The notes under the pieces: generated by a model
What the model saw: only the letters and a program-made list of their open reading frames with translations
Told to the model about the DNA's origin: nothing
Database searches by the model: none
Shown here: one piece after another, positions 18,388 to 42,436 of the stretch
How positions within the stretch are numbered: position 1 is the first letter of the stretch
Layout: each line of letters begins with the position of its first letter
NCBI GenBank assembly: GCA_933822405.4
Contig: CAKOGP040002280.1
Coordinates: 1 to 64,000 of the forward strand
Reading direction: 5' to 3'
Source: Cylindrotheca closterium
Taxonomy: Eukaryota; Bacillariophyta; Bacillariophyceae; Bacillariales; Bacillariaceae
DNA: 64,000 nt
Position numbers and translations under genes: made by a program

Positions 18388-19950
18388 ATGAAGTTTTCGT
18401 CTCTCTTATTCACCACATTAGTCGCCCTTGCCTCTGGCCATTACGTTGATGAGAAACCTGAAAGTAAGTCGACAACATAGATTATTCAAGATTCCACCAC
18501 CACCACCACCACCATGAATCATTGCAATCAAAAGTCACATCGCAATCTCATCTTCGACGCTATATATGACCTTGCATTATTTTCGTCCCTTTCAGGCCGT
18601 CATGAAGTGCATTCTAACTATCATGATGTGAGATCTCATCACACGTCCGAGGATCCTGCTGAAAGTAAGTCATCCTTGGTATACTTGTGTTCAGCAACTC
18701 CTTCACTGGACGTACTCGCCATGTGCCATTATAGTAAAAGTGTCACACACAATCTCAAACAGTCATACTTCTTTGATTTCCTTTCTCTTCAGGCCGTTAC
18801 AACGAGGGGCCTTCTGAGTACGAGGTGAGATCGTCTCATCACAAGTCTGATGTGCATGAACGCACCCATCAAGACAGTACCAACAGCAACAACCTTCGTG
18901 GAGGGCCCTCTGCTGGAAATGGCTATGCTCATGGTCGATCTGGTTACTACCACGGCACCGATTCCAACGAACCTCGAGCTGGCGAGGGCCGAAGTGTGCA
19001 ACACGACGTTCTCATAATAGGTGCTGGAGCTGCTGGTCTCAGTGCCGCCCACGAGCTCGAAAAACAGGGCTGGACTAATTACAAGATCCTAGAGGCGCGA
19101 TCTTCCAGATGGGGGCTGTACTAGCTACCATGATCCACCAGAGTATCGCTGGGCAGGAAAGATGGGTTGGCATAGCTTCCTCACTGAATATGTGGCATAT
19201 GATGCAGTGAGAAACAATGTCATCAACAATTGTGAAAGTCAAGGCAATCAACACCCAAGGCGATGGTGTCTCCGTCACGTGCGGGGGCACTACCTACACT
19301 GCGTGGTACGTGATTGTGTCACGGTGCCAATGAAGATGCTCCAGAAGAATACGATCACCTTCACTCCTTCTCTACCGAGTTCGTATACCCAGGCAATCAA
19401 TAAGTTCATCATTGGCAATGGGTTCAAGGTCTGGATTGAGTACCAAGCCGGTGCAGAATACAAGGAGTATTTCACCCACACAACTGATTTGGCCATGTAC
19501 AGAACGTCGTGGGATGTGACTTCTCCGGCCATTGCTGCAGAGGCTGGATACCGACTGTTTTGGAACGAAGGATATCCGTATGGAGCCAGTACCAAAATTG
19601 TGGGTGGCCTCATTTATGGCAAAGCATACAACGAGTATGACGGCTTGTCATCGGAACAGAAGAAGAAGAAGATTGCGGAACACTTGGAAAAAGACGGCAT
19701 GGTGTATGGAACACCAACCGGCAGATGGACCGTCATGGATTGGAAGGAAGAAGACTACATTGAGGGTGCCTATACCATATTTGCGAATGAGGCCGACCAG
19801 TCAACCTTGTTAGATCCCATTTCATCCAAACTATACTTTGCTGGAGAAGCCTTAAATGAATGGACATGGGGTACGGTCCATGGAGCCGCTAAAACCGGAA
19901 GGGATCAAGCGAAGAAAATTGTGGCTGCTGGTGAACGTCGCCGCGAGTAA
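18388..19950 (+). pseudogene. Broken first copy of secreted flavin amine oxidase
   Basis: Same gene structure as the intact copy at 20400-22167: exon 1 18388-18463, exon 2 18596-18664, exon 3 from 18793, all joined in phase 1 with GTAAGT donors. The start encodes a signal peptide (MKFSSLLFTTLVALASG) and the FAD-binding GAGAAG is present. Compared with the intact copy, exon 3 lacks 227 bases after 19096 (junction near 19096-19101), which removes the part encoding GGRTR and the following segment, shifts the frame and leads to a stop at 19122-19124. Two further insertions follow: one A at GTGAAAGTC (about 19234) and two bases near 19317. Downstream the frame is open again to 19950, so most of the substrate domain is still readable but not joined to the N-terminus. 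Exon 3 is almost identical to the intact copy. A secreted N-terminal fragment could still be made; I call it a pseudogene. Confidence 0.85.
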
Positions 19951-20399: not shown

Positions 20400-22167
20400 A
20401 TGAAGTTTTCGTCTCTCTTGTTCACCACATTAGTCGCCCTTTCCTCTGGCCATTACGTTGATGAGCAACCTGAAAGTAAGTCGACGATCTGTTTGCAACA
20501 TAAATTGTTCAAGTTCCATCATGTATCATCGCAATCAAAAGTCACAACGCAATCTCATCTTTGACGCTCTATACGACCTTCCTTCCCTATTGCTTCAGGC
20601 CGTTATGAGGAGCCTTCTAACTATCATGTGAGATCTCATCACACGTCCGAGGAACCTGCTGAAAGTAAGTCATCCTTGATATATTTGTGTCGAAGTATTA
20701 TGGTTTGACATGATCCGTGATGTGTGTCAGCACAATTTAACAATCTCATCTTTGCGTGACAATCCTTGATTTCCTCTCCCTTCAGGCCGTTACAACGAGG
20801 GGCCTTCTGAGTACGAGGTGAGATCGTCTCATCACAAGTCTGATGTGCATGAACGCACCCATCAAGACAGTACCAACAGCAACAACCTTCGTGGAGGGCC
20901 CTCTGCTGGAAATGGCTATGCTCATGGTCGATCTGGTTACTACCACGGCACCGATTCCAACGAACCTCGAGCTGGCGAGGGCCGAAGTGTGCAACACGAC
21001 GTTCTCATAATAGGTGCTGGAGCTGCTGGTCTCAGTGCCGCCCACGAGCTCGAAAAACACGGCTGGACTAATTACAAGATCCTAGAGGCATCCGACAAAA
21101 TTGGTGGCCGCACCCGTCATGAATGGTCTTTTGGTGAGAATGACGAGGAATACAACATTGATTTGGGTGCTCAGTACATCCACACAACCAATGATATTGG
21201 GAACGGTAAATATACTGGTGAAGATAGAGCCTACAATCTTTTGCAAGAAATGGTTTCTTATCCACTAGAGGAGGCCTTCAAGACTACATATACGAAGAAA
21301 GAATTTGCAAATGTATGCGTTCTTCCAGATGGGGGCTGTACTAGCTACCATGATCCACCAGAGTATCGCTGGGCAGGAAAGATGGGTTGGCATAGCTTCC
21401 TCACTGAATATGTGGCATATGATGCAGTGAGAAACAATGTCATCAACAATTGTGAAGTCAAGGCAATCAACACCCAAGGCGATGGTGTCTCCGTCACGTG
21501 CGGGGGCACTACCTACACCGCGTGGTACGTGATTGTCACGGTGCCAATGAAGATGCTCCAGAAGAATACGATCACCTTCACTCCTTCTCTACCGAGTTCG
21601 TATACCCAGGCAATCAATAAGTTCATCATTGGCAATGGGTTCAAGGTCTGGATTGAGTACCAAGCCGGTGCAGAATACAAGGAGTATTTCACCCACACAA
21701 CTGATTTGGCCATGTACAGAACGTCGTGGGATGTGACTTCTCCAGCCATTGCTGCAGAGGCTGGATACCGACTGTTTTGGAACGAAGGATATCCGTATGG
21801 AGCCAGTACCAAAATTGTGGGTGGCCTCATTTATGGCAAAGTATACAACGAGTATGACGGCTTGTCATCGGAACAGAAGAAGAAGAAGATTGCGGAACAC
21901 TTGGAAAAAGACGGCATGGTGTATGGAACACCAACCGGCAGATGGACCGTCATGGATTGGAAGGAAGAAGACTACATTGAGGGTGCCTATACCATATTTG
22001 CGAATGAGGCCGACCAGTCAACCTTGTTAGATCCCATTTCATCCAAACTATACTTTGCTGGAGAAGCCTTAAATGAATGGACATGGGGTACGGTCCATGG
22101 AGCCGCTAAAACCGGAAGGGATCAAGCGAAGAAAATTGTGGCTGCTGGTGAACGTCGCCGCGAGTAA
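20400..22167 (+). CDS. Secreted flavin amine oxidase (polyamine-oxidase-like), three exons
   Basis: Exon 1 20400-20475, exon 2 20599-20664 and exon 3 20786-22167 encode 507 residues; both introns are phase 1 with GTAAGT..CAG borders. The start gives a signal peptide (MKFSSLLFTTLVALSSGHY), followed by a short His/Ser/Glu-rich region in which exon 2 and the start of exon 3 encode similar motifs (SRYEEPSNYHVRSHH and SRYNEGPSEYEVRSSHH). The FAD-binding motif starts near residue 119 (VLIIGAGAAGLSAAHEL), IGGRTR follows, and the C-terminal FAD motif is YFAGEALNEWTWGTVHGA. This is the PF01593 amine oxidase fold; polyamine oxidase is the closest general type, but the substrate cannot be read. Such enzymes deaminate or cleave amines with release of hydrogen peroxide, here probably in the secretory pathway or outside the cell. 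Confidence 0.86.
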
Positions 22168-22815: not shown

Positions 22816-25800
22816 ATGGCACAATCCTTTCACAATCAAACGAAAAAAATCGTTATTCCGGCGAATAAAGAGGATGCATACGTCTACAAGGTTGGTTCTA
22901 AGGGGCTCCAACGAGACACATCCAAACAACATGAAGGCGTCTGGAACGCCGAGCCGAAGGGCCTGTCACAATATCCATTGCGGACGAGTCCTGTGAAATT
23001 GTGGATTTTCTTTTATGATCATTTGAAGAATACAGACGTTCTGGACGGTATTTTGGACAACAATCCGAACCAAGGGGAATTTGGATACAGTTGCCAGAAT
23101 CCAAGAAAGGCCAAGCCTGAAGAAATGGTCTTCTTCTTGCCCAAAACCAAGGTGCCAGATTCATACAAACCAGGGGGGATATGGGTGCATCCAGTTTTCA
23201 AATTAGAAAATCTAAAGGATTTGGATGAGGGGGCGGCAGGATTCATGGTCATGGGAGACAAAGTGGAAAAGACCACGAGGTTAGGCGTAGGGGGCGCCTG
23301 GAACATGATGGGACACAATGCCAAGGTAAAACTACCCAAAAATGAAGCAGAATTGGGCGGGAAACAAGCAAAAGAACCATTTGGGGTCAAGATCCGCCAG
23401 AGTAGCACTGGTGAAATATTTCCAGTACCACTTCCATCGAGCAAGACCAAGGTGGACACGCTCAAGGACAAGATCTACACGAAGAAGGGCATACCATCGG
23501 AAGATCAACGGCTTTCATTCAATGGCACGCCGCTCGAGGGCAAGATGTTAAAGGATTATGGGATTAAGAATGGGGATATTATTGATCTTGAGCCAATGAA
23601 GGTATACGTCAAGAATCCTAAAGGAAAACGATTTCTCTTTGAAGTCGCACCAGATGAACAAGTGGAGAGCTTGATGGAGAAAGTTGAAAAGGAGGAAGGA
23701 ACTCCCGCAGAACAGCAAAAGCTGTCATTTTACCGACGGAAACTGGATCCAGCCAAGACCCTGGCGGACTACCGGATCAAGCACATGAATATCATTGATA
23801 TGACACTCGCACCACCCGTCAAAAAGGCACGTGTCTTTGTCGAAATTCCCGAGGGTCTCAATTCAGAGGGAGACCCCAATAATAAGATTGAGCTCAATGT
23901 GGCACCGACCAAGACCTTTGGCCAAATCAAGAAACTTGTGGAAGAGCAGACAGGAGTTCCAGCATCACGACAACGAATATTTTTTCAAGACAAGGAAGTT
24001 CCTGACAAGAAGCCAATCGCGAAAGCAAAACTTCAGGATGGCGATACGATTCGAATGGAGCCGATCCCTGAAGCAGAAGTCGACGTGAAAATGCCAGACG
24101 GAACTAGTCGGCAATTTGTCTTTGATCCTGAGGTGCCTGTTGGGGAATTCAAGGAAAAGCACAAGAAGGATTTCCCTGCAGGGACGAAGCTCATGTTCAA
24201 TGACATTGAAATGGTAGACGAGGATCCAATGGGGAAATACAACCTGAAGAAAGGGGATGTCCTTGTTGCCGAACCAGAGGATGTTGAAGTTGCTACACCC
24301 ACCGGCAAGGTAATGTTGTCAGCTTTCACAACATTGACACCAAGCGATATAAAGGACGTCATTGAAGAAGAGACAGGTGTACCTAAGTCGCAACAGCGGA
24401 TTTTCTTTTTCGATGAAGAACTGGTCGATGATGACAAGCCCATCGATAAAGAAAAGCTGAAAGCGATGGGCACACAAGGACTTCGAATGGAACCAGTGCC
24501 TCCAGAGGTCGAAATTACACTACCCAGCGGTCAAAGTCGAGCATTCTTTATGGACCCATCAGACACGGTACAAGATTTCAAGGAGAAGCATAAGGCGGAC
24601 TTTCCACCAGGGACCAAGCTGATGTTCAACGATGAAGAGCTAGTGGACGAGGATCCACTGGGAAAATACAACCTCAAGAAAGGGGACGTGCTACTGGCCG
24701 ATCCAGACAATGTCGAAATCGATACACCCACCGGCAAGGTAATGTTGTCAGCTTTCACAACATTGACACCAAGCGACATCAAGGATGTCATCGAAGAAGA
24801 AACGGGAGTACCCAAAACCCAACAGCGGATTTTCTTTTTCGATGAAGAACTGGTCGATGATGACAAGCCCATCGATAAAGAAAAGCTGAAATCGATGGGC
24901 ACACAAGGACTTCGGATGGAACCAGTTCCTCCAGAGGTCGAAATTACACTACCCAGTGGTCAAAGTCGAGCATTCTTCATGGATCCAGCGGACAAGGTGA
25001 AAGATTTCAAGGAGAAGCATAAGGCGGACTTTCCACCAGGGACAAGACTCATGTTCAACGATGAAGAGTTGGTGGACGAGGATCCATTGGGAAAATACAA
25101 CCTCAAGAAAGGTGACGTGCTCGTTGCCGAACCGGATGATGTAGCTATCGAAACTCCTCGAGGCAAAGTCATGCTCTCGCATTTACCAACAATGACACCA
25201 AGCGATATAAAGGACGTCATTGAAGAAGAGACAGGTGTACCTAAGTCGCAACAACGACTATTCTTCTTTGACGAAGAACTGGTCGATGATGACAAGCCCA
25301 TCGATAAAGAAAAGCTCAGATCGATGGGCACACAGGGACTTCGAATGGAACCAGTGCCTCCAGAGGTCGAGATCACTCTACCCAACGGCCAGAGTCGAGC
25401 ATTCTTTATGGACCCATCAGACACTGTACAAGATTTCAAGGAGAGGCACAAGACGGACTTTCCACCAGGGACCAAGCTGATGTTCAACGATGAAGAGTTG
25501 GTGGACGAGGATCCACTGGGAAAATACAACCTCAAGAAAGGGGACGTGCTACTGGCCGAGCCAGATGATGTAGCTATCGAAACTCCTCGAGGCAAAATCA
25601 TGCTCTCGCATTTACCAACAATGACACCAAGCGACATCAAGGAGGTCATCGAAGAAGAGACAGGCGTGCCCAAGTCGCAACAACGACTATTCTTCTTTGA
25701 CGAAGAACTCGTAGATGATGACAAGCCCCTGGACAAAGCGAAGCTCAAGTCATTGGGAACTCATGGTCTTCGTATGGAGCCAATACCAGCAGAGGTGCAA

Positions 25801-28800
25801 ATAACGATGCCGAACGGCAAATCTCGAACGTTTGTAATGGATCCAGAAGAATCGGTTCGAGACTTCAAGAAGAAGCACAAAAAGCATTTCCCTCCTGGGA
25901 CGAAGATGACATTCAATGGCGTGGGGCTAGCTGATGAAGAGCCACTTGGAAAGTATAATCTGAAGAGAGGCGATGTACTAGTTGCCGAGCCAGAAGGAGT
26001 AGCTATTGAAACCCCTCGTGGCAAAGTCATGCTGTCACTACACCCAACAATGACACCAAGCGACATCAAGGATGTCATCGAAGAAGAGACAGGCATCCCG
26101 AAGTCGCAACAACGACTTTTCTATTTGGACGAAGAGTTGACAGATGATATGAAACCGCTGGACAAATCTAAGCTACAAGCCGTTGGAACTGACGCACTTC
26201 GAATGGAGCCGGTGACTGACGACGACCCAACTGATCCTAAACTTGCCAACACAAGCAACCCAAGGGCTTTCTATCTAACGGAACCTGAAGATATCGAGAT
26301 CATGCTTCCAACTGGAAAAAAGGTCGCTCTTGCTGTCACACCAACCATGACTGTTGAAGAGCTGAAGGCTGTTGTGGAAGAAAAGGTACCAGAAATGAAA
26401 AAGTCGAAACAACGTCTATTCTTCTTCGACAGCGATGGTAAAATCAACAACAAGACGCCATTTTCAAAGGTCATGTTTGAAAGAGGAAGTCCATTGGAAG
26501 TGAAGCCATTTGAAATCACAATCTTAAAGCAGAATAATGGAACTTCCTTTCAGCTCTATCCCGATCCACTAGAGTACTTGGATGACATCAAGGATAGAAT
26601 AGAGGAGATTACAGGCATCCCCCCGGACTCTCAGTACCTTTCTATGATGGGATCCAAACTGGATGACATGCTTACGCTAGAAGCACAGGCCATTGAACAC
26701 ATGTCGAGACTGACATTAGACACTATGGAAATCCTGGTTGATATTCCCGATGGAAATCGTATTCCTGTGGCAGTGCAGCATGATGAGAGCATTCGGAGCA
26801 TCACGGAGAAGCTTGAAAATACTACTCAAGTGCCCGCGGAACGACAATGCATCTTGTCTGGACCGGATCAGCTTCAAGATGACGATACTTTAGATGCCAA
26901 GGGTATCGATGGTGGCGATATTCTCAAGATGGAGCTATTTCAGGTCAATTTTTTGCATTGGTTGGGCTATGAATTCAGTATCGACGGCTTGTCGCCAAAT
27001 TCAACATTGCCGGCCATGAAAGAACGAATCGAAGAAGATAAGTTGATACTCAAGGAAGACCAAAACTTCGAGCTGAAGGGTCAGGTTCTCAACAATGAAG
27101 AAACACTGCGGAAGCAGGGTATCAATCATAAGGCTTTGCTTGTCATGCAAGAGGGAAAAAAGATTGAAGTTTCTCTACCGCGAAAGAAGAAAATGACACT
27201 TACAATCTTCCCAACCACAACAATGCGCGACATGAAGCAGATCATCGAAGAAAAGATTCCAGCCATGAAAACGAAGAAACAACGGCTTTTCGCTTTTGAT
27301 ATGGAAGATGAAATTGAGGATGATACACCACTCTCAAAGCTGAAGTTTGACGACGGTCATCCACTAGAGTTACGGGCAATGGAAATATCAGTGCAGCATT
27401 GGAACGGTAAATCTTTCGATTTGCCATGTGCTCCGTCCGAATACATCGATGATGTGAAAGATATGTTGGAAGATTTGACAGGCATCCAGGCTTCTTCCCA
27501 ACGACTGACGCACGATGGAAAAGGCGTGGACGATACGCTTCGACTAGAAGAGCAAGGTATTGTGGATGGAAGTACCCTGCTTTTGGAGCAGATGAGAATC
27601 GTAGTACGACTGCCAGATGGACGTAAGATTCGATTGCGAGCAGAACTAAAAGACACAATTAAGTTGATCAAAAAGAAGATCGCCAAGAAATCAAGTCAGC
27701 ACCATGAAAAGCAGAGTATGTTGTTTGCTGGTGAAGATCTTGACGACAAGTCAACGTTGGGGGCTTGTAATATTGCGAATGGTGACGAGTTGACTATGGA
27801 GAACTTTCGGATTGATATCATGGATGATTCTGACGGAACTATTGTCACACTCGTTGATGTTGCTCGTAGTGACACCATCGACGATGTGCGGCAACACATA
27901 CGGAAACAGTTCAACAGACAAGTAGAACCTCAACAACTCTTTTCGCAGCAAAGTTCATCAGCTCTGGACGACAGCTCTAGTCTGAAGAAGCTTGGAATCG
28001 CACATAAGTCGATTATCGTAATTCGGACACCCGAAGAGAAAATTGCGGGATACAAAGCTGATAGGCTTCAATTCAACAAACTGTTTTCGACAAAGAAATT
28101 TGACGATCTTGATGACGATATTATTATTCCAGTTGAACCAGACTGGAGGACCAGAACGTTCATTTTCGACAATGATGCAACTCCAATTGATGGATTCATA
28201 ACCATTACCGTCTTACATTGGTCTGGGAAATCATTTTCCTTTGACAAGGTTAGACCAAGAGATACAATCAAGGACATTAAGCTGAGAATCAGGAAAAAGA
28301 AGAAGAAGAAGTTCCCGCCATACCATTTGCGACTCAACGGAAAAATTCTTAAAGAATCCGGAACACTTCTCAAGCTGGGGGTCGGACACAAGTCGATCTT
28401 CGTGATGGAAGAAAAGACGAGAAAGTCGATAGATATGGTGCCACAAGTGGACAAGATAAACATCGGAACGCTCGATACCCTTACAGAAGACAGTATCACT
28501 GTTGCAATCAAGCTGTGGAATGGAGACCTGCTAGAGTTGGCTATCGGAGCCACAGAGTACCTTGATGATATTCGAGATGAAGTATTCAACCGTCTTTCTA
28601 TACCAGCAGAGTATCAGAATCTCTCATTTGACGGTGATCTTGTCGATGACACTTTGACGCTGAAGGAGCAGGAAATCGTAGATGGATCCATGCTGGTACT
28701 GGAACAGTTGGAAATCCAAATCAACTTACCGTTCAAGGGAACTATGTTGTTGAAAGTAGAACCAGAGGATACGATTGCATCCATCAAACAAAAAGTCGAA

Positions 28801-29889
28801 AAGAAAACTGCCTTTGCTGCAAAGGTTCAGTGTTTTCTGTTCCAAGGGGAACTTCTTGACGATTCCAGTAGGATAATGGATTGCGATATTCAGCACGAAG
28901 ATGAACTGGATGTCGAACTATTCGTACTGAACATCTTGCAACTACAAGGTGCTAAATTCGCTATCTCTGGTGCTATCCATCCAGGAAGTACCATCTATGA
29001 CGTCCAACAAATCATCGCTAAGAAGCAGCTTATCCCTACACACCTACAGCAAATTCGATTGCACGGGAAGGTATTGAACCCGGATCTTCAGCTTTCAAGA
29101 CAAGGGGTTGTTCACAAGTCGATTTTGATCCTCGAAGCATCAGGAGACAAGGACCAGCAACAGTTAAAGAGAGAGAAAATTCAATTGCAAGTCCCAGCAG
29201 CACCTATTCGAAGACGATTATCAAATCCAGAACTTGAATCACCAACATTTCGAGGTCGCAAGACTGTCCCAGCAAAGGGAGCTACCAAGAGAAACAGCTC
29301 TGTAGATGCAGCTTCAGCAAATATTCAATCGATGAGCAAATCATCTGCCGAGGATTCAAAACCGGACTTGGACGATGGGTCGAAGCCTGTCTTGCGAGCA
29401 CGGAAGGGGAAGCGATCGAAATCAGTGGACCGGAGTAGGGATAGTACACCAGTGCCAGAAGAGGATGCAAGACCGGCGATGCGAGGACGGAAAACCGATA
29501 AAAGGAAAGTGAAACGATCCAAGTCTGTGGATCCAACTACTGCTGATACCACAGATCCGGCAGACGCAGATGATTCCAAATCTTTGAAGAAGAAAAAAGG
29601 CAAGCGCCCCAAATCCCCAAAACGGACCAAGTCTCCAAAGCGAACCAAGTCCCCAAAGCGATCCAAGAGTCCCAAGAGAGCTTCAGAAAAGCGACCAAGT
29701 GCGGCGGCTTCTGTTGATTCCAAACCTGATAATGATGAGGAGGAGAGCAAACAAGAGGCGTACAAGCTTGGTGCGCTTGCTGGTAGGGTTCACATTGACA
29801 AGTCGACAGCGAAATCAGAAGTGGAAAAAGTAAAAGCAAAAGAAGAAGCAAAGAAAAAAGAGAAAAAATCGGGTTGGTGGGGTTTCTAA
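22816..29889 (+). CDS. Giant multi-ubiquitin-like-domain protein (about 25 UBL folds)
   Basis: One intron-free ORF of 2357 residues. Residues 1-188 form an unrecognised N-terminal domain (KLWIFFYDHL, GGIWVHPVFKLENL). From residue 189 (FGVKIRQS) to about 2110 I count 25 consecutive beta-grasp, ubiquitin-like units of 67-98 residues, each with the pattern hydrophobic strand, turn, strand, D-x-I-K-x-x-I/V-E-E helix, Q-R-L-x-F strand, D-D/E turn, and G-I/L-x-x-G/H-D-x-I/L end. Units 1-3 are divergent; 4-13 are five copies of a 143-residue two-UBL repeat; 14-25 follow a D-A-B-C module order. The tail (about 2110-2357) is basic and Ser-rich with KRSKSVD and four SPKR/TKSPKR motifs, then a charged helix ending GWWGF. 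No unit ends in a processable Gly-Gly, so this is not a polyubiquitin precursor. A scaffold or elastic spacer role is a guess. The start ATG (ACCATGG context) precedes the conserved-looking domain. Confidence 0.9.
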   Translation: MAQSFHNQTKKIVIPANKEDAYVYKVGSKGLQRDTSKQHEGVWNAEPKGLSQYPLRTSPVKLWIFFYDHLKNTDVLDGILDNNPNQGEFGYSCQNPRKAKPEEMVFFLPKTKVPDSYKPGGIWVHPVFKLENLKDLDEGAAGFMVMGDKVEKTTRLGVGGAWNMMGHNAKVKLPKNEAELGGKQAKEPFGVKIRQSSTGEIFPVPLPSSKTKVDTLKDKIYTKKGIPSEDQRLSFNGTPLEGKMLKDYGIKNGDIIDLEPMKVYVKNPKGKRFLFEVAPDEQVESLMEKVEKEEGTPAEQQKLSFYRRKLDPAKTLADYRIKHMNIIDMTLAPPVKKARVFVEIPEGLNSEGDPNNKIELNVAPTKTFGQIKKLVEEQTGVPASRQRIFFQDKEVPDKKPIAKAKLQDGDTIRMEPIPEAEVDVKMPDGTSRQFVFDPEVPVGEFKEKHKKDFPAGTKLMFNDIEMVDEDPMGKYNLKKGDVLVAEPEDVEVATPTGKVMLSAFTTLTPSDIKDVIEEETGVPKSQQRIFFFDEELVDDDKPIDKEKLKAMGTQGLRMEPVPPEVEITLPSGQSRAFFMDPSDTVQDFKEKHKADFPPGTKLMFNDEELVDEDPLGKYNLKKGDVLLADPDNVEIDTPTGKVMLSAFTTLTPSDIKDVIEEETGVPKTQQRIFFFDEELVDDDKPIDKEKLKSMGTQGLRMEPVPPEVEITLPSGQSRAFFMDPADKVKDFKEKHKADFPPGTRLMFNDEELVDEDPLGKYNLKKGDVLVAEPDDVAIETPRGKVMLSHLPTMTPSDIKDVIEEETGVPKSQQRLFFFDEELVDDDKPIDKEKLRSMGTQGLRMEPVPPEVEITLPNGQSRAFFMDPSDTVQDFKERHKTDFPPGTKLMFNDEELVDEDPLGKYNLKKGDVLLAEPDDVAIETPRGKIMLSHLPTMTPSDIKEVIEEETGVPKSQQRLFFFDEELVDDDKPLDKAKLKSLGTHGLRMEPIPAEVQITMPNGKSRTFVMDPEESVRDFKKKHKKHFPPGTKMTFNGVGLADEEPLGKYNLKRGDVLVAEPEGVAIETPRGKVMLSLHPTMTPSDIKDVIEEETGIPKSQQRLFYLDEELTDDMKPLDKSKLQAVGTDALRMEPVTDDDPTDPKLANTSNPRAFYLTEPEDIEIMLPTGKKVALAVTPTMTVEELKAVVEEKVPEMKKSKQRLFFFDSDGKINNKTPFSKVMFERGSPLEVKPFEITILKQNNGTSFQLYPDPLEYLDDIKDRIEEITGIPPDSQYLSMMGSKLDDMLTLEAQAIEHMSRLTLDTMEILVDIPDGNRIPVAVQHDESIRSITEKLENTTQVPAERQCILSGPDQLQDDDTLDAKGIDGGDILKMELFQVNFLHWLGYEFSIDGLSPNSTLPAMKERIEEDKLILKEDQNFELKGQVLNNEETLRKQGINHKALLVMQEGKKIEVSLPRKKKMTLTIFPTTTMRDMKQIIEEKIPAMKTKKQRLFAFDMEDEIEDDTPLSKLKFDDGHPLELRAMEISVQHWNGKSFDLPCAPSEYIDDVKDMLEDLTGIQASSQRLTHDGKGVDDTLRLEEQGIVDGSTLLLEQMRIVVRLPDGRKIRLRAELKDTIKLIKKKIAKKSSQHHEKQSMLFAGEDLDDKSTLGACNIANGDELTMENFRIDIMDDSDGTIVTLVDVARSDTIDDVRQHIRKQFNRQVEPQQLFSQQSSSALDDSSSLKKLGIAHKSIIVIRTPEEKIAGYKADRLQFNKLFSTKKFDDLDDDIIIPVEPDWRTRTFIFDNDATPIDGFITITVLHWSGKSFSFDKVRPRDTIKDIKLRIRKKKKKKFPPYHLRLNGKILKESGTLLKLGVGHKSIFVMEEKTRKSIDMVPQVDKINIGTLDTLTEDSITVAIKLWNGDLLELAIGATEYLDDIRDEVFNRLSIPAEYQNLSFDGDLVDDTLTLKEQEIVDGSMLVLEQLEIQINLPFKGTMLLKVEPEDTIASIKQKVEKKTAFAAKVQCFLFQGELLDDSSRIMDCDIQHEDELDVELFVLNILQLQGAKFAISGAIHPGSTIYDVQQIIAKKQLIPTHLQQIRLHGKVLNPDLQLSRQGVVHKSILILEASGDKDQQQLKREKIQLQVPAAPIRRRLSNPELESPTFRGRKTVPAKGATKRNSSVDAASANIQSMSKSSAEDSKPDLDDGSKPVLRARKGKRSKSVDRSRDSTPVPEEDARPAMRGRKTDKRKVKRSKSVDPTTADTTDPADADDSKSLKKKKGKRPKSPKRTKSPKRTKSPKRSKSPKRASEKRPSAAASVDSKPDNDEEESKQEAYKLGALAGRVHIDKSTAKSEVEKVKAKEEAKKKEKKSGWWGF
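24076..26220 (+). repeat. Five in-register 429-bp coding repeats
   Basis: Units begin at 24076, 24505, 24934, 25363 and 25792, exactly 429 bases (143 codons) apart, each encoding two UBL folds: one starting EVxIxxPxGxSRxF and one starting VxxxTPxGKxMLS. Units 2-4 are the most alike; the first and last are more diverged. No indel disturbs the register over 2145 bases. Confidence 0.95.
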
Positions 29890-39966: not shown

Positions 39967-40386
39967 ATGGCCGACGCTGAAGAAGGAGGAGATAACCCAG
40001 ATCAAATCACCATCCGAGTCAAGGATCAGGTAAGCCGTCAAAGCAATGCTCATTGAAAATGGGCGCGCAATGCGTCTGGGTGTCATCCTTGTCTTCTGGA
40101 CAAAGATGGCCGTTGCAAGGCATTGTTTCTGCCTTTCACAACATGTATTAACCGGCTATTGCGTTTCGCTTGATAGGCTGGAGAGGAGACATTCTTCAAG
40201 ATCAAAAAGACCACCAAAATGGGAAAAGTCTTTCAAACATATGCGCAACGAAAGGGAATGCAAGTCTCTTCGCTTCGTTTCCTTTTGGATGGGGACCGCA
40301 TCAAGGATGATCAAACTCCAAAGATGTTGGAGATGGAGGATCAAGACCAGATAGACTGTGTTTTGGATCAAGTTGGAGGGTTTTAG
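39967..40386 (+). CDS. SUMO: SUMO (small ubiquitin-like modifier), two exons
   Basis: Exon 1 39967-40029 and exon 2 40177-40386, joined across a 147-nt intron (GTAAGC..ATAG) in phase 0, encode 90 residues. The product starts MADAEEGGDNPDQITIRVKD, continues with AGEETFFKIKKTTKMGKVFQ, SLRFLLDGDRIKDDQTPKML and ends DQIDCVLDQVGGF. These are the standard SUMO fold landmarks (RFLxDGxRI, TPxxLEMEDxDxID, QxGG). After the Gly-Gly needed for conjugation there is only one residue, Phe, so the SUMO protease has to remove a single residue. The N-terminal extension is short. SUMO modifies nuclear proteins through an E1-E2-E3 cascade. The assignment is firm even though neither exon alone gives a long ORF. 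Confidence 0.95.
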
Positions 40387-41331: not shown

Positions 41332-41760
41332 CTAGAACATCTCTCCTGTGGTATCAATGCGGAGGGAGTTACCTGACCTCCGATGACTTTTGTTGGACGA
41401 ACGGCGACTAGCCGAGGCATCATTGCTCACGTCCTTTCCCTTTTGCGAATTACCATCGCACTTGCCGTCCTCTGTAGCTTGAGGCAAAGGTGTGTCTTCC
41501 ATGTCTTCGATAAGATTATCTTCGTAATCTCCTTGGCTGGTGACGGAAGAAAAGTCTTCATGGCCACTGGCGTCAATCCCGTGAAAGATCCCATTCTCGT
41601 CAAGGACTCCGTCGCTGTCCAGTACTAGCACGTGTGCTGATTCCTGCACATCGTCATCCCTCGCTGATTTGTTCTTCTTTAAGGGCTTGTACATTTTGGA
41701 TCCAAGACGTCCTATTTGGTGAAGGATGGATTGAGGCTTGGGGGCTTCGTAGTCTGACAT
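41332..41760 (-). CDS. Truncated Trx-fold family member (N-terminal part only), member 4
   Basis: A 142-residue ORF that begins like the other cluster members, with PKPQSILHQIGRLGSKMYKP near the N-terminus, followed by an acidic linker (DYEDNLIEDMEDTPLP) and a basic Ser-rich end (RRSSNKSHRRSGNSLRI). The whole thioredoxin-like domain is missing. The ORF ends cleanly, and the sequence downstream to 40900 does not encode the missing domain in any frame I could recognise. It is either a truncated paralogue or a member that works through the N-terminal motif alone; the former is simpler. Start: first ATG. Confidence 0.6.
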   Translation of the reverse strand: MSDYEAPKPQSILHQIGRLGSKMYKPLKKNKSARDDDVQESAHVLVLDSDGVLDENGIFHGIDASGHEDFSSVTSQGDYEDNLIEDMEDTPLPQATEDGKCDGNSQKGKDVSNDASASRRSSNKSHRRSGNSLRIDTTGEMF

Positions 41761-42436
41761 TGCTAATGTTGGCTGTGTTTTGTGAAAGTCGAAAGATACA
41801 TTATGCCAATTTGGATATCAATAAAAGCAAATGTATTTCCGTGTGGTTGGATATGGCTTTCCAATGAATGACTCAGATTTTCGGGGTTTCTGTGCCCGTA
41901 GTCAAGATTTTTGAAAAGGCTTTTCACTTTTCTGGTGAAAAGCTCGTCCTTCTCCCAAGTTGAATTTCGAAATTGGCTTGTTCAATAAAACAAGGCGAAA
42001 ACCCAATATAAAACATCACGAGACTAACAGTCGCAAGAATCTGTTATTTTGAGATTGCTTTACGTGTTGCCATTTGTGGTCGTGCTGATAGATCGAAAAG
42101 CTTCTCAGCATTATGACTGGAGTCGATCTGCGACTCTAGATTTAACGGGGGTGACCTTCATGAAAAACCTTGAGCCATCATCATAACAAGAGATTGTCAA
42201 CGGGAATGTTGTGAGGACTGAAGGTTCGCAGGCTTTTGGAACGCGGAAGTAGTACCGTTTTCGGCAACATCCATCGTTGTGTTTGCTACTAGGAGCCTTG
42301 GATGGGCAAGTGTGGACCTGTGGGCCTCCTACTGGTCAGTATCAGCTAATGTCATCCTAGAAATGATACTAGATATGGGGTTTGGTGCAGTGCAGCCATT
42401 GTACAAAATCATGTATTATAAATATATGTAGTTTTC
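41761..42436. other. Intergenic
   Basis: About 675 bases between members 4 and 5 of the Trx-fold cluster. No gene or strong repeat seen. Confidence 0.5.

Follow-up and report, generated by a model that had tools for sequence, protein, structure and literature searches.

The window analysed here (64,000 nucleotides of Cylindrotheca closterium, positions 1 to 64,000 of contig CAKOGP040002280.1) carries on its plus strand, at 22816-29889, a single open reading frame which runs from ATG to TAA with zero internal stops and encodes a predicted protein of 2357 amino acids, exactly where the initial annotation of this DNA had placed it. Both ends of the frame are backed by a database relative, P0001, which starts MADEFHVQVRKLVIPANK where the protein here starts MAQSFHNQTKKIVIPANK, and which has the C-terminus GGWWQM compared to SGWWGF. 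An N-terminal domain of residues 1-188, here called the W-domain (22816-23379), is followed by 25 ubiquitin-like (UBL) units with the eroded remains of a 26th, and then by a basic, probably unfolded tail of 251 amino acids (29134-29886) ending in GWWGF; the length of the N-terminal domain and the basic nature of the tail had also been described correctly from the letters alone. This architecture, 25 ubiquitin-fold units plus one eroded unit in one frame, is well supported.

By pairwise identities the units fall into classes in the order n1, n2, alternating B and A (units 3-13), C-D-E-F, C-D-E-F, an eroded C with F, and D-E-F, after which comes the tail. Units 1 (n1) and 2 (n2) lie at 23386-23589 and 23602-23802. 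The B units (3, 5, 7, 9, 11 and 13) occupy 23872-24057, 24283-24474, 24712-24903, 25141-25332, 25570-25761 and 25999-26187, and the A units between them (4, 6, 8, 10 and 12) occupy 24079-24267, 24508-24696, 24937-25125, 25366-25554 and 25795-25983. The first C-D-E-F module (units 14-17) is at 26293-26502, 26515-26718, 26731-26931 and 26944-27147, and the second (units 18-21) is at 27163-27372, 27385-27585, 27598-27798 and 27811-28023. The eroded C-type unit (28024-28203) precedes unit 22 (type F, 28204-28407), which is the most basic of all with a net charge of +14, and units 23 (D), 24 (E) and 25 (F) complete the array at 28501-28701, 28714-28914 and 28930-29133. All 25 were delimited by a family HMM and class assignment, and all except units 4 and 18 by a genome search as well.

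The initial annotation had counted about 25 ubiquitin-like folds, and this was borne out both by profile searches and, for the first units, by structure prediction. The ubiquitin-fold superfamily profile PF00240 matched the protein with 643.6 bits, 25 stretches being counted when E-values up to 10, a lax limit, were admitted, and the family HMM, which is partly circular in having been built partly from the protein's own units, found 25 units between residues 191 and 2106, each at E ≤ 2.9e-12; on 200 shuffles of the protein the same HMM gave nothing at E < 0.01 (best 4.2 bits). The genome search listed 23 of the 25 singly at E ≤ 1e-3 (22 of those 23 above the Pfam cut-off), with no single listing at that threshold for units 4 and 18. 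Units 1-4 were modelled as UBLs, unit 4 minus its last strand, with a block pLDDT of 66-89, and the solved structure nearest to this model was linear tetra-ubiquitin (7eb9, Foldseek E 1.3e-28); the model's pTM of 0.35 does not resolve inter-domain packing, and units 5-25 are assigned to the fold by profile only. The eroded unit (residues 1737-1796) scored a weak 6.4 bits against the C-class HMM, and its equivalent scored 17-31 bits in five relatives tested (six reversed controls, ≤0.7).

As in a polyubiquitin precursor, ubiquitin folds are here joined head to tail, and that likeness in outline is the argument for a polyprotein which is cleaved into many UBL modifiers. The units of polyubiquitin, however, are identical and are released at Gly-Gly, whereas these are divergent and without it: GG occurs solely at residues 120, 159 and 181 of the N-terminal domain and at residue 1366 inside unit 16, so that no junction has one, as the initial annotation had also stated, and RGG is absent from the whole protein. 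Identity has a median of 23% over all unit pairs and is 21-36% when single units are set against ubiquitin, and the Leu8-Ile44-Val70 patch is kept by none of the 25, on which grounds a polyubiquitin precursor was rejected as the identity of this protein. Given in addition the short pitch of the units and their conserved order among relatives (both below), a cleaved precursor is very improbable. The stable, uncleaved multi-UBL chain proposed in the initial annotation thus stands as something distinct from polyubiquitin, and the diversity which it ascribed to the units holds for the array overall but not for units 4-13, which are of two alternating types with certain same-type copies 85-94% identical. 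Polyubiquitin of 2-52 copies is reported for Trypanosoma cruzi in a section of PMC11354881, and the C. closterium genome itself (47.6 Mb in 572 contigs as searched) has a normal polyubiquitin gene on C435, with six listed units at 228 bp spacing.

The W-domain had no match in Pfam (the top-scoring model, at 11.3 bits and E 0.26, fell short of its cut-off of 26.3) and no confident match in a PDB profile search (best E 0.86). Its core, residues 12-128, was modelled as three beta-hairpins. By profile it recurs in the genome, with 16 copies in one protein, and so on this sequence evidence the unclassified tryptophan-bearing domain is a recurrent module which forms arrays of its own.

A database search, which reaches only proteins having short words in common with the query, scored 7862 candidates and returned 12 relatives (P0001-P0012) at E ≤ 1e-3, with 15-34 units each by the family profile (Pfam alone gives fewer in the four relatives checked). 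One, P0003, carries the source name 'ubiquitin C', and P0012 is a 'hypothetical protein' of Bacillariaceae sp. Like the protein here, the relatives have many UBLs and a W-domain followed by n1-n2 (all 11 with an intact front, 11/12 overall, the n2 of P0009 being uncertain and P0006 being a fragment without the front), but they have fewer B-A pairs or none. With classes assigned from seeds in this protein and five relatives, the block C-D-E-F-F-D-E-F found here is present in every one of P0001-P0010, that is in 10 of the 12 relatives, and is missing from P0011 and P0012. P0001 has an extra C-D-E-F ahead of this block, P0004 and P0006 have two extra D-E-F behind it, and P0002 and P0003 have one C-D-E-F module compared to two here. 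There are 2, 3 and 2 B-A pairs in P0001-P0003 and 5 in this protein, while front and end are constant; the centre of P0004-P0012 consists of other units, and P0009 and P0010 have an extension ahead of the W-domain and almost no tail. Judged by these shared features the protein belongs to a conserved family and is not a one-off, and its conservation and its separateness from polyubiquitin are both well supported at the level of sequence. Full-text literature searches, which carry little weight as most subscription journals lie outside their coverage, turned up nothing whose title or abstract describes a protein of this kind. The class is wider than the initial annotation had supposed, since relatives and paralogues exist.

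The B-A dimer corresponds to a DNA tandem repeat with a period of 429 bp (24148-26135, 4.6 copies, 83% matches), and this, together with the C-D-E-F modules, suggests that the array grew two, three or four units at a time. Recent unit copies are under purifying selection: of 20 B-A pairs compared within a class, nine have a dS < 1.2, and these give a dN/dS of 0.07-0.22 (the remaining B-A pairs and most C-F pairs are at or close to synonymous saturation). When 15 one-to-one slots were compared with P0001, leaving out B-A units 4-13, 13 were best matched by their own slot (the misses being units 15 and 24) and 14 were nearer to their P0001 counterpart than to all other units of this protein (the miss being unit 24), with means of 55% compared to 39% and 40%; the units have thus kept separate identities. 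A decayed or artefactual reading frame, for which the one eroded unit might speak, is extremely improbable in the face of 2357 open codons, a dN/dS far below 1 and relatives that keep both order and ends.

At least eight further open frames in the same genome are multi-UBL, with 3-20 UBLs each (C223a 10, C223b 20, C392 16, C541 5, C68 10, C249 5, C113 6 and C447 3 units). C223b shows a strict alternation of two unit types, and C392 has a pitch of 71-72 residues at 15/15 junctions. The C223 pair are adjacent frames (C223:553778-561812, 10 + 20 units) in which two unit types alternate and the tails carry SPKK-like motifs. Two adjacent frames at C329:138228-148704 consist mostly of tandem W-domains (3 + 16 copies by profile); both end in a motif like VGKLKLPxAFSGK, and their start resembles, by eye, that of C541. 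Two ubiquitin-like units at C526:23607-24050 follow a hydrophobic, signal-peptide-like N-terminus, and one of them retains L8, I44 and V70 together with RGG. For the silicon transporter family the genome gave 12 matches, the best nine at E ≤ 1e-247, and one of 14 control genomes was matched, none above the cut-off; taken with the Bacillariaceae label of P0012, this marks the genome as a diatom's.

According to part of PMC7226360, the surface that most ubiquitin-binding domains contact is the one around residues 8, 44 and 70. The initial annotation had suggested a scaffold for UBL-binding proteins (UIM, UBA, proteasome), and as far as this would work through the Leu8-Ile44-Val70 surface the suggestion finds no support: position 8 is hydrophobic in 5/25 units and position 44 in 16/25, but position 70 is polar or charged in all 25, and so in no unit are 44 and 70 hydrophobic together. 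For this reason the canonical ubiquitin-patch binding mode is, as read from these residues, lost in the 25 units. A ubiquilin-like protein of this genome (named by eye) has S8, V44 and V70, and C526 and C447 each have one unit that retains L8, I44 and V70. A multivalent receptor platform, on which the UBLs would recruit UBA, UIM, proteasome and p97 proteins, could be served by other surfaces, as low-homology UBLs usually bind via an alpha/beta groove (as stated in a portion of PMC7226360), and the slot-specific conservation of units would suit individual docking sites. However, besides the contrast at positions 44 and 70 with the ubiquilin-like protein, no surface face stands out when conservation is scored across ten unit slots (core highest at 0.55, the face around I44 at 0.42, only slightly above the four others at 0.30-0.41), and the Pfam list contains no UBA at E ≤ 10, which together make such a platform unlikely. 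The NCBIfam rad23 model does match the UBL part, at 120.3 bits against a cut-off of 207.3; as it falls under its cut-off and no UBA is listed, a Rad23/ubiquilin UBL-UBA shuttle was rejected.

The tail contains 69 K+R and 38 D+E in its 251 residues, had no match in Pfam, and carries four [ST]P[KR][KR] and two RSKSVD motifs. Four of the former were reached by none of 2000 tail shuffles, and one such motif occurs in 13,288 amino acids of other long frames in the window. SPKK-type motifs bind DNA in histone tails. Among the relatives, the P0006 tail has three SPKR-type motifs and the other 11 of the 12 have none in the tail; P0001 has four RSKSVD-like motifs, and P0009 has two of these in its N-terminal extension. 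Paralogue tails have two (C223a), seven (C223b) and one (C68) SPKR-type motifs, with none in the other five. A SAP domain was matched in P0010 (24.8 bits, cut-off 23.9), the P0009 match of 13.9 bits being below the cut-off. The tail motifs and the SAP match point weakly to nucleic acid or chromatin.

The median pitch of the units is 74 residues, 18 of the 24 junctions being at most 76 and six being longer, up to 135; the pitch of the polyubiquitin in the same genome is 76. Such a short pitch would leave little or no room for the flexible end of ubiquitin, and a rod built of these units would have hinges at the six long junctions. We infer, with slightly less than an even chance of being right, that the protein serves inside the cell as a stable, rod-like scaffold whose centre varies and whose ends are conserved, and this is the likeliest single reading of it. 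Its folds, stacked end to end, would make a stiff rod that is largely acidic and very roughly 90-100 nm long (units 4-11 each have a net charge of -5 to -9, unit 12 of +1 and unit 13 of -5), in which the variable centre would determine how far apart the partner-docking end modules lie, and the charge of the SPKR/RSKSVD tail could serve to anchor it, perhaps on nucleic acid or chromatin and under phosphorylation control. A possible role as mechanical spacer, which the initial annotation had also raised, would fit the variable length of the centre. That variable centre with constant ends, seen in four proteins, is a stronger argument for a rod or spacer than is the divergence of neighbouring units. 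Identity is 29% at lag 1 and 46% at lag 2 in this protein, and 29% and 56% in C223b. Part of PMC4660218 reports low neighbour identity for titin-like folded chains, where it is thought to limit tandem-domain misfolding; polyubiquitin avoids misfolding despite identical neighbours, according to sections of a simulation paper (PMC4862688). Against shuffled unit order, neighbour dissimilarity reached significance in C223b (0.0002) and C392 (0.022); it did not do so in this protein (mean 0.32, maximum 0.056) or in any of the 11 database relatives tested (mean, 0.32-1.0), and so it may only reflect block duplication and is given little weight. Also against the rod-like scaffold are the six junctions longer than 76 residues, the restriction of SPKR-type tail motifs to one of 12 database relatives and three of eight paralogues, the low pTM, and a centre in P0004-P0012 that is not a B-A array.

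Titin-like tandem Ig chains resemble this protein in being long rows of homologous folds whose neighbours have diverged, and, the fold being another, the comparison (drawn from part of PMC4660218) is one of working principle. It raises a mechanical element in which beta-grasp units would resist or buffer tension, as might suit many folded units in series, an array length that varies among P0001-P0003 and this protein, and the published work on linkage-dependent mechanical stability of ubiquitin that is cited in a section of PMC4862688. The Pfam list contains no known cytoskeletal anchoring domain, however, and the eroded unit and the six long junctions break up the chain, so that a tension-bearing role is rather unlikely.

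ISG15, FAT10 and OASL have two tandem UBLs, with an LRGG end where conjugated. They likewise place different UBLs in tandem, and ISG15 and OASL structures were among the Foldseek matches, but with 25 units and no RGG the protein was rejected as a member of this class. Bacterial PolyUbl proteins also join UBL repeats in tandem within a single chain, as a rule two or three of them, and are encoded in operons with conjugation-type genes (as described in part of PMC11354881), whereas here there is a eukaryotic gene with 25 units; among neighbouring ORFs of at least 200 amino acids, read by eye only, none was recognised as E1, E2-like or JAB. It is possible, though doubtful, that diatoms evolved a structural system which employs ubiquitin folds as titin employs its Ig domains, with length-tunable rods of distinct UBLs capped by the three-hairpin W-domain, which also has 16-copy arrays of its own; inside the cell these would make up a scaffold network, perhaps bound to chromatin, that has not been described before and has no part in ubiquitin conjugation.

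The ubiquitin fold has here been expanded into long arrays that are predicted to be uncleaved and are conserved by position, and an unclassified domain is revealed which partners UBL arrays and builds arrays of its own. If the rod reading is true, diatoms, which are major primary producers, would have a large intracellular scaffold class, and source names such as 'ubiquitin C' (P0003) could hide it. The array is also a natural set of many diverged ubiquitin folds in which to examine how domains that resemble their neighbours escape misfolding.

Elsewhere in the window, some 10 kb 3' of the multi-UBL gene, lies a likely SUMO gene (39967-40386, named by eye) of at least two exons, the last frame of which ends Gly-Gly-Phe. 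Upstream, two amine-oxidase-like ORF copies (also named by eye) are at 19162-19950 and 20818-22167, the first being the shorter. On the minus strand, between 31503 and 45044 and with other ORFs interspersed, there are five related ORFs of 234-278 amino acids with a common PQSI(V/I)H start and a common region CxxxRV...P(L/M)FT...QPT(I/L)VA(I/M)(R/K)NG, which looks thioredoxin- or phosducin-like by eye, and a shorter sixth ORF with that start is at 41332-41817 on the same strand.
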